Shown here: one piece after another, positions 55,241-57,887 of the stretch | Layout of the letters: each line of letters begins with the position of its first letter | How positions within the stretch are numbered: the stretch's first letter is position 1 | NCBI RefSeq assembly: GCF_002976435.1 | Contig: NZ_PUGF01000007.1 | Coordinates: forward strand, 1-64,000 | DNA from: Solimicrobium silvestre | GTDB lineage: Bacteria > Pseudomonadota > Gammaproteobacteria > Burkholderiales > Burkholderiaceae_D | Reading direction: 5' to 3' | Length of the DNA: 64,000 nucleotides | The notes under the pieces: model-generated | What the model was told of the DNA's origin: nothing | What the model saw: only the letters and a program-made list of their open reading frames with translations | The model's database searches: none | Made by a program: the position numbers and the translations under genes

Positions 55241-55432
55241 TCTGAAAACGCTGCATACCACAGGGTACCGGTGGACTATTTCCATGTCGTCTTTACGTTA
55301 CGCACCATCGCTGCCAACCCGACACATCTCGGTGCACGTATTGGCGCAACGTTGATATTACATACCTGGAAATCGGCGTTGAAACATCATCCGCATGTGC
55401 ATGGCATTGTTCCGGGCGGTGATATACATCGG
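55241..55432 (+). pseudogene. IS91-family transposase remnant with internal deletion
   Basis: The frame reads YHRVPVDYFHVVFTL, then jumps to NPTHLGARIGATLILHTWKSALKHHPHVHGIVPGG. Both parts match conserved neighbouring blocks of Y2-type IS91 transposases, but about 40 residues that normally separate them are lost and neither end is complete. The element is dead. It sits between the sugar operon and the leader-peptide gene, marking a rearrangement point. The rest of 55080-55634 holds no gene I can name. Confidence 0.75.
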
Positions 55433-55634
55433 TATGCTAATTTCGTCACCTTTAACTATCATAACGATCAAGGTCTGGTTGTTTGAATTGTGTATTCTGT
55501 GTAGTGCACGATGGAAGAAAAAGACTAACTGACATTCTGTAATTAATTCAATTTTACATCGGGCGCATTATCAATATTGTGATCAGCTCATTATTGACTT
55601 AATGAAGTATCTAACTATGAAAAGGAATTTGCAT

Positions 55635-55814
55635 ATGAACCAAACAAACAATGTAGGTTTTCGCGTTCTTGCTCGTGATATTGCAGAAGAGCTCACTGCG
55701 GAAGAACTAATGGACGTTAGTGGCGGCGGATGAACGGTGTCCGGTACGCTGACCAACCCTCCACAAGGAAGTAATCAACCAGATTGGGTAGTCATCGTTT
55801 CTTGCCCCCTTTAA
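55635..55814 (+). pseudogene. Double-glycine-leader peptide gene with in-frame TGA at the cleavage site (RiPP-like)
   Basis: The ATG at 55635 (AAGGAA 7 bases upstream) begins a 32-residue leader, whose second half AEELTAEELMDVSGGG is the classical double-glycine type of bacteriocin and RiPP precursors. Codon 33 is TGA (55731-55733). The same frame then continues for 26 codons as TVSGTLTNPPQGSNQPDWVV... to TAA at 55812, with one Cys near the end. If the TGA were TGG, the product would be a 59-residue precursor with core Trp-Thr-Val-Ser... So either a nonsense mutation stops the gene at the leader/core border, or UGA is read through (it is followed by A, a leaky context). No C39 peptidase or modifying enzyme lies nearby. 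Confidence 0.7.
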
Positions 55815-56003: not shown

Positions 56004-57887
56004 ATGAAACTCAAAACCAAGCCGTTAGCTGCTGCAGTATCTGGCCTATTCATTGGAGCACTATGTTTGCCAGGTAGCGCATTTGCTGCCAAATCACTTA
56101 CAACCGCGCAGGACACAGGCGCAATCTCACCGACCCAGACCCAGACCGTTTCTATTGTGCTGCAGTTGCGCAATGCTAATGAGCTCAATAAATACATTAA
56201 CGACACTGTCGATCCTAACAGCCCGAATTACCATCATTTTTTATCGGTGGATGAATTCGCGCACCGTTATGCTCCCACAGATGCAGACGTTAATCGCGTT
56301 AAAGCAGACTTAGGCAAATTAGGGATACAGGTTAGCGAAGTTTACCGCAGCCACATGGTCATACGCGCAACCGGTAGCACTGCGCAATTTAACAAATATC
56401 TTGCCACTGAAGTGCATAGTTACAAGGAGAACGGGTTAAGTTATATCAAACCAAGTGTTGCCCTTACTATTCCTTCCAGCGTGTCTGATGTGGTCATGGC
56501 AGTAATCGGTCTGAATACCAAACCTAAATTACATTCGCTGTCGCATAATCTTGCCAAGGATTCTGGCGGCACGATGAAGATGGTTCCAGGCACCAAAGGA
56601 ATAAAATTGGCTAATGGCGTAACAACGACCAACTCACCTGGCTCGTTTACGGTAACCGATGTCGCTGAACTGTATAACATCAACCCGCTGTACCAACAAG
56701 GCATTCTGGGGCAAAACCATAATATTGGTATAGCAACGTTTGCCACCTTCACCGCCAGCGATGCTTATACTTATTGGCAAACCATCGGCCTGCACGTGGC
56801 ATCCGATAGAATCACAGAGATTCCGGTTGATGGCGGAACCGGAACAAATGGATCTGGTGAAACTACACTAGACGTAGAACAATCTGGCGGTGTCGCACCG
56901 GCAGCCAAAGTCTATGTTTATGAAGCGCCGAATACTGATCAGGGATTTGCCGACGTATTTTTAAAAGCGGCCGCTGACAACACAGTCGACACGCTTTCAA
57001 TGAGCTGGGGCGGCACCGAATTTGGTCAAGACACGGGCGTTATGCCAGCAGTCCATCAGGCCTTGATGGAATTGGCAGCGCAAGGTATTTCCGTGCTCAC
57101 TTCGTCCGGTGATGAAGGCGCGTACGACATCAACAATAATCAAGGCTATTACTATTATCCCGGCTGTACAGCAACGCTGAGTGTCGAGTACCCCGCCAGC
57201 GATTCGATGATTCTTGCCGCCGGCGGGATAACCTTGGCCGGAACCCAAACCTTTTACAATAGCAATAACGTTGTAGTTGGCAGTGTTACTGTGCCCAAAG
57301 ACAGGGCCTGGGCCTGGGATTATCTACAAAACTTCTTCATCACCAATTTTGGCGATAACTCCTATTACGAACACTTATTTCCAGTCGGTGGCGGCGGTGG
57401 CGTGAGCGTGGAATTTGACCTGCCGTACTACCAGCAAAATTTGCACGGCACACAAGTCACAGCAGCTAACCAAGCTCTAATTTGCCAGACATCTACTGGC
57501 CCGGTAGATCTGATCGATTTGCCAGATGGTTATGCAGGGCGCAATGTGCCGGACATCTCGTTGAATGCAGATCCTGATACCGGCTATGCCGAATACGTGG
57601 GCGGCCAATGGGCGTACTACTGGGGTGGCACCAGCTTTGTCGCTCCTCAGTTAAACGGTATGGCCATTCTCGTTTCCCAAGTCAGCGGAACACGCCTGGG
57701 ATTTTTGAATCCGCAGTTGTATTCAAGATTCAATCAATTTGGCTATGGTAGCAATTCGCCATTCAGAGCCGTTACTGCTGGTGACAATGAGTACTATCAA
57801 TCAACCTATGGCTACAGCCCGGCAACAGGAATTGGCGCTATCGACGTAACGAAATTAGCCAAATCTTTTTCTAGAGGGGGTTACTAG
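56004..57887 (+). CDS. Secreted S53-family (sedolisin/kumamolisin-type) serine-carboxyl peptidase
   Basis: A 627-residue secreted protease, usually active at acid pH. The signal peptide ends near residue 29 (GSAFAAK). A pro-kumamolisin activation domain follows (about 45-180; YHHFLSVDEFAHRYAPTDAD). The catalytic Glu and Asp are E286 and D290 in GSGETTLDVEQ; the oxyanion Asp is D370 in TSSGDEGAYD; the nucleophile is Ser544 in GGTSFVAPQ. All key residues are present, so it should be active after self-cleavage. GGGAG precedes the start. Its closest upstream gene is the interrupted leader-peptide, which raises the possibility of a functional link. It is the last island gene before the right attachment repeat. 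Confidence 0.93.
   Translation: MKLKTKPLAAAVSGLFIGALCLPGSAFAAKSLTTAQDTGAISPTQTQTVSIVLQLRNANELNKYINDTVDPNSPNYHHFLSVDEFAHRYAPTDADVNRVKADLGKLGIQVSEVYRSHMVIRATGSTAQFNKYLATEVHSYKENGLSYIKPSVALTIPSSVSDVVMAVIGLNTKPKLHSLSHNLAKDSGGTMKMVPGTKGIKLANGVTTTNSPGSFTVTDVAELYNINPLYQQGILGQNHNIGIATFATFTASDAYTYWQTIGLHVASDRITEIPVDGGTGTNGSGETTLDVEQSGGVAPAAKVYVYEAPNTDQGFADVFLKAAADNTVDTLSMSWGGTEFGQDTGVMPAVHQALMELAAQGISVLTSSGDEGAYDINNNQGYYYYPGCTATLSVEYPASDSMILAAGGITLAGTQTFYNSNNVVVGSVTVPKDRAWAWDYLQNFFITNFGDNSYYEHLFPVGGGGGVSVEFDLPYYQQNLHGTQVTAANQALICQTSTGPVDLIDLPDGYAGRNVPDISLNADPDTGYAEYVGGQWAYYWGGTSFVAPQLNGMAILVSQVSGTRLGFLNPQLYSRFNQFGYGSNSPFRAVTAGDNEYYQSTYGYSPATGIGAIDVTKLAKSFSRGGY

Follow-up and report, generated by a model that had tools for sequence, protein, structure and literature searches.

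The interrupted frame and its surroundings

The window, i.e. the whole 64,000-nucleotide stretch of the Solimicrobium silvestre genome that we analysed, contains a short frame that begins like a double-glycine precursor and is closed by a TGA codon. The features of the region are the following.

55265..55426, + strand: IS91-family transposase relic that spans residues 91-171 of the 396 and lacks 27 internal residues
55622..55626, + strand: likely ribosome-binding site AAGGA, read from the sequence, 8 nt 5' of the ATG
55635..55730, + strand: double-glycine leader of 32 codons, MNQTNNVGFRVLARDIAEELTAEELMDVSGGG, ending in V-S-G-G-G
55731..55733, + strand: TGA stop, second codon past the canonical GG (from sequence and leader alignment)
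55734..55814, + strand: 26 open codons and TAA, putative former core, read from the sequence
56004..57887, + strand: downstream neighbour, pro-kumamolisin-type (S53-like) peptidase; full-length frame, no link found

The layout given by the initial annotation is confirmed by the sequence: 32 codons lead to V-S-G-G-G, followed by the TGA at 55731-55733, 26 sense codons and a TAA at 55812-55814. The leader ATG lies at 55635, and an alternative in-frame ATG is possible at 55602. The RiPP-like nature of the leader was also upheld. Indeed, the search for a double-glycine pattern combined with a start codon gave a single match in the window and no match in 300 first-order Markov windows of equal composition, the pattern having been composed after the leader was already seen, and the NCBIfam model TIGR03949 matches the leader with an E value of 3.9e-4 and 20.1 bits, slightly short of its cut-off of 21.5. 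Moreover, the codon use of the leader is gene-like (+0.28 bits per codon), and the leader is short with an end of the E-L-x-x-E-x-L-x-x-V-S-G-G type, as in the double-glycine leader peptides that are C39 substrates. A RiPP-type double-glycine leader at 55635..55730 is well supported, and judging from its sequence it is very likely genuine.

Cleavage of double-glycine leaders falls behind the second G of the motif, and the aligned leaders read VSGG followed by W, VSGG followed by V and VAGG followed by Q. The cut is therefore expected behind the second G, which makes the TGA the second codon of the core; the stop was initially placed exactly at the processing site, and this position has to be shifted by one codon. 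TGA is an ordinary stop in the window, where it terminates 11 of the 34 genes counted.

Reading of the window's list of open reading frames of at least 90 aa revealed neither an enzyme nor a transporter of RiPP pathways. In the assembly, the completeness of which is 98.97%, the best match to TIGR04187 (MvdC/MvdD-like) reached 15.5 bits, as against 154.7-197.8 bits at the loci L076, L077, L144 and L161 of other genomes; an ATP-grasp maturase, as expected of graspetide precursors, was thus found neither among the window frames nor by the TIGR04187 search of the genome. Three C39 matches are present in this genome (L073, L074 and L075), none of them recognised within the window, and the last is a short frame with no leader nearby. 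L073 (C1:79000-98000) is a microcin-like cluster with a precursor reading MRELSFVDVEKVNGG up to the boundary, a C39 transporter and an HlyD protein. L074 (C10:88000-107000) is a radical-SAM RiPP cluster. Its precursor ends in SGG followed by LKSVNNSCTNSGC, and with it stand a radical SAM protein, a C39 transporter and another large ABC transporter; HlyD-like and TolC-like genes were recognised by reading. Processing in trans by the transporters of L073 and L074 is conceivable, a point against the reading as a decayed gene favoured below.

When the spacer DNA was compared with the family genomes, matches were confined to the transposase relic; apart from the genome itself, 8 of the 294 gave such a match. 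A link between the leader and the S53-like peptidase was considered and rejected: this genome has eight pro-kumamolisin matches, including the one at 56004-57887, and no such leader was found around the other seven copies or around six relatives (L027-L032). The window spacer and the 500 bases upstream of the C32 paralogue have nothing in common beyond matches of 8-11 bases. As an aside, the pattern scan of named genomes returned relatives of the window's peptidase copy from one Oxalobacteraceae MAG and five Alicyclobacillus species.

The frame behind the stop

We then asked whether the 26 codons behind the TGA are a core that has stayed open, as had been proposed. Our results do not bear this out: a frame this open has to be expected in 28% of cases, no relative was found in the sets searched and folding does not exceed that of shuffled sequences. 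Of 9628 stretches of 26 codons in the hand-listed intergenic DNA of the window, 2679 are open. In codon score (-0.07 bits per codon) the post-stop frame takes the 4th percentile among gene stretches and the 55th among open intergenic ones, and hence looks intergenic. The score was controlled with two precursors of the same genome: the core of the microcin-like one scores +0.18, and the 13-codon core of the radical-SAM one scores -0.24 bits per codon. As a true core can score -0.24, the test has little power for cores.

No relative of the post-stop frame was found in two sets of family genomes (294 and 392), among the named genomes, or in plasmids, phages and viral contigs; the scan of the named collection used short peptide patterns, so that its reach is close relatives only. 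At E <= 5 the frame matched in 111 of the 392 family genomes, its own included. Besides the window's own, 29 loci were returned, of which 20 were inspected, none with a double-glycine leader ahead of the match, and we judge these inspected matches to be due to chance. In the family, named, plasmid, phage and viral sets, no homologue had this frame as its core. In the searches run, no homologue aligned at the TGA codon, so that the proposed loss of a Trp gained no support. The PHROGs collection had no match for the leader and none for the post-stop frame, and comparison of the latter with ten small open reading frames at plasmid ATP-grasp loci gave p values of 0.08-0.98.

It is possible, although we consider it somewhat unlikely, that the leader is real, that its true core was lost by rearrangement and that the 26 open codons are there by chance. 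This would agree with the 28% of equally open intergenic stretches, with the intergenic-looking codon use, with the lack of any relative in the sets searched and with the IS91 relic, whose internal gap shows that the spacer has been rearranged. Against it, the GC content of the 26 codons (53%) exceeds that of the flanks (40-42%). A five-residue match to the core at L144, TLTNP, would also speak against a chance frame; it reached p 0.035 in one of 8 comparisons, which is not significant, and was rejected because 149 of 9129 window translations score equally well.

Folding of four stretches around and behind the TGA does not exceed that of shuffled sequences (z -0.56 to 0.71), and the promoter and terminator scan was close to the shuffled expectation. 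Decoding of the TGA as selenocysteine or another residue by recoding is barely credible: the in-frame TGA alone suggests it, no Rfam match lies near the TGA at gathering thresholds, and the folding around the codon does not rise above the shuffles. More generally, neither the conserved post-stop frame nor the recoding signal of a recoded gene was found, the frame having no relatives in the sets searched and the folds being those of shuffled sequences.

Relatives of the leader

At E <= 5 the leader matched in 76 of the 294 family genomes, many of the matches being about 20 residues long within frames of about 900 aa or more; 5 of the 12 places inspected are double-glycine precursors. In the four other genomes of the genus nothing similar to the leader was found at E <= 5. 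An order-wide search with a four-leader profile matched 99 of 399 genomes at E <= 0.5, and 29 loci and 17 further stretches were inspected. This profile leans to graspetides, because two of its leaders are graspetide leaders. A weak match in genome G004 was discarded, there being no double-glycine frame at that place.

When 26 double-glycine leaders were compared, the five closest to the window leader scored 56-60. Three of these five (L076, L077 and L144) sit directly upstream of an ATP-grasp RiPP maturase of the MvdC/MvdD type, and the ATP-grasp proteins match TIGR04184, TIGR04185 and TIGR04187 at 143-198 bits, all below the curated cut-offs of these models. The top-scoring leader belongs to the remaining pair, L164/L079, near which no ATP-grasp protein was recognised among the open reading frames listed for the stretches examined; in G154, the genome of L164, one lies on another contig, at L077. 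At L076 (4569-10104) and L173 the genes stand in the order precursor, ATP-grasp and DUF6624-like protein, as graspetide-type clusters, the third being a weak Pfam match in L076 and annotated in L173. L076 further has, upstream, a C39 transporter and what reads as an HlyD-like gene.

The reverse approach, which started from the enzyme in plasmids, is less biased than a search that starts from the leader. Three ATP-grasp queries matched 50, 33 and 57 records, with overlap between the sets, and nine records drawn from the sets of 50 and 33 were inspected. The leader motif precedes the ATP-grasp gene in two of the nine, from Bradyrhizobium sp. CB82 (one precursor) and Legionella adelaidensis (three precursors), with p 0.001-0.003, and is absent in the other seven. 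On the Legionella plasmid (L169:636-2409) the three small precursors stand in tandem before one ATP-grasp maturase; they have R-V-L/M-A-Y-Q-L-A-K leaders and differ in their cores. By BLASTP the window leader matches the Bradyrhizobium precursor with E 8e-6, a pairwise value.

Other observations bear on graspetide membership. The NCBIfam models of ATP-grasp targets did not match the window leader, the best models of which are bacteriocin ones; one of these target models, TIGR04497, gave a weak match (E 0.0019) to the L077 precursor. The similarity of leaders is that expected of graspetide precursors, and two of the five leaders and seven of the nine records do not support it. A core with several Thr/Ser and Asp/Glu/Lys, another mark of such precursors, is not encoded, as the stop falls at core codon 2. 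For a graspetide core, acidic residues are scarce in the post-stop frame, with one Asp and no Glu, and Lys is absent; the scarcity of acidic residues counts against the graspetide reading.

Probable decay of a precursor and known counterparts

Altogether, we think it probable that 55635-55814 is what remains of an orphaned and decayed RiPP precursor gene, the graspetides being its most likely kind. The gene is truncated by a stop and stands alone, with no processing enzymes recognised in the window; therefore a decayed remnant, rather than a new route of peptide making, is the most likely explanation. The evidence for this explanation is the leader motif, found in none of 300 Markov windows, the gene-like codon use of the leader, its likeness to leaders beside ATP-grasp maturases, the IS91 relic upstream, the lack of a recognised ATP-grasp maturase in the assembly and the lack of a similar leader in the four other genomes of the genus at E <= 5. 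According to this scenario, the leader of the ancestral precursor would have been recognised by an MvdC/MvdD-like ATP-grasp enzyme, and a C39 peptidase-transporter is predicted to have cut behind the GG. The graspetide ancestry of the leader is suggested by its sequence relationships, and the TGA may be a mutation within a former core. The leader and its likely ribosome-binding site would have persisted. With the TGA closing the frame at core codon 2, translation should yield the leader stub alone. The gene was presumably orphaned, as no such ATP-grasp enzyme was found in the assembly and a decayed insertion sequence adjoins it. Probably nothing useful is made from 55635-55814.

The TGA could in principle be a sequencing or assembly error in an intact precursor, which we consider improbable. 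A single assembly is available and the frame is open past the stop, yet even an intact precursor would be without an ATP-grasp enzyme in the genome and without any recognised enzyme nearby.

A stop at the leader/core boundary is not described in the titles and abstract openings of the literature surveyed. We found a second case in a genome of the same order, G675, where a bacteriocin-like precursor on the minus strand (L146:3889) has a TAG exactly after the GG, followed by 60 open codons. Its frame behind the TAG resembles a stop-free precursor of the same genome, L147, with 57% over 35 residues and an E value of 0.17 after composition correction. Because the stop lies directly behind the GG in G675, decay of this sort has a precedent. 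Among 26 double-glycine frames, this is the one with a stop directly after the GG, 24 show 13-85 open codons and one leaves its contig; core length was limited in some source scans, hence the set is no fair census. Stops between leader and core exist; to read selection into them, a proper census is needed first.

The initial annotation had offered a recent mutation, read here as decay, or read-through as explanations. Decay is favoured by the lack of a recognised maturase and by the insertion-sequence relic, and read-through gained no positive evidence. A programmed read-through, in which the stop permits a small, controlled amount of precursor, is decidedly improbable: the closeness of the stop to the boundary, the open frame behind it and the case in G675 would be in line with it, and against it speak the absence of a conserved post-stop frame in the sets searched and of folding beyond the shuffles, the ordinary use of TGA as a stop (11 of 34 genes) and the failure to find a maturase. 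We give very little credence to the further idea that boundary stops are selected and recur in unrelated double-glycine precursors (at core codon 2 in the window and codon 1 in G675), so that mainly free leader is made, which would occupy the maturase or the C39 transporter, and a trace of product would arise by occasional read-through. If boundary stops did exceed the expectation from decay, this would be new biology.

Taken alone, a decayed gene carries little weight. Our results nevertheless suggest that a double-glycine precursor can survive as a stub consisting of the leader alone where the maturase is absent, and that the R-V-L-A-x-x-x-A leader motif is tied to MvdC/MvdD-like ATP-grasp clusters in several proteobacteria. 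The motif may thus aid the finding of orphan graspetide precursors.

Three known arrangements can be set beside the decayed precursor of the window. The first is L146 in G675, which likewise has a double-glycine leader, a stop at the boundary and an open frame behind it; there the post-stop frame resembles an intact precursor of its own genome, whereas that of the window is without a known relative. The second comprises the graspetide-type precursors of L076, L077, L144, the Bradyrhizobium sp. CB82 plasmid (P0001) and the Legionella adelaidensis plasmid (L169). Their leaders are of similar size and share with that of the window the pattern R-V/I-L/M-A-x-x-x-A ... I/V-S/A-G-G, but these loci have an uninterrupted core and an adjoining ATP-grasp gene, whereas the window copy is interrupted by a stop and the search of its genome gave no such enzyme. 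The third is the class II bacteriocin and microcin precursors (TIGR03949 and relatives), with which the window leader shares the end E-L-x-x-E-E-L-x-x-V-S-G-G, although it stays below the TIGR03949 cut-off. In its N-terminal half, the window leader is closer to the graspetide leaders than to the short bacteriocin leaders.
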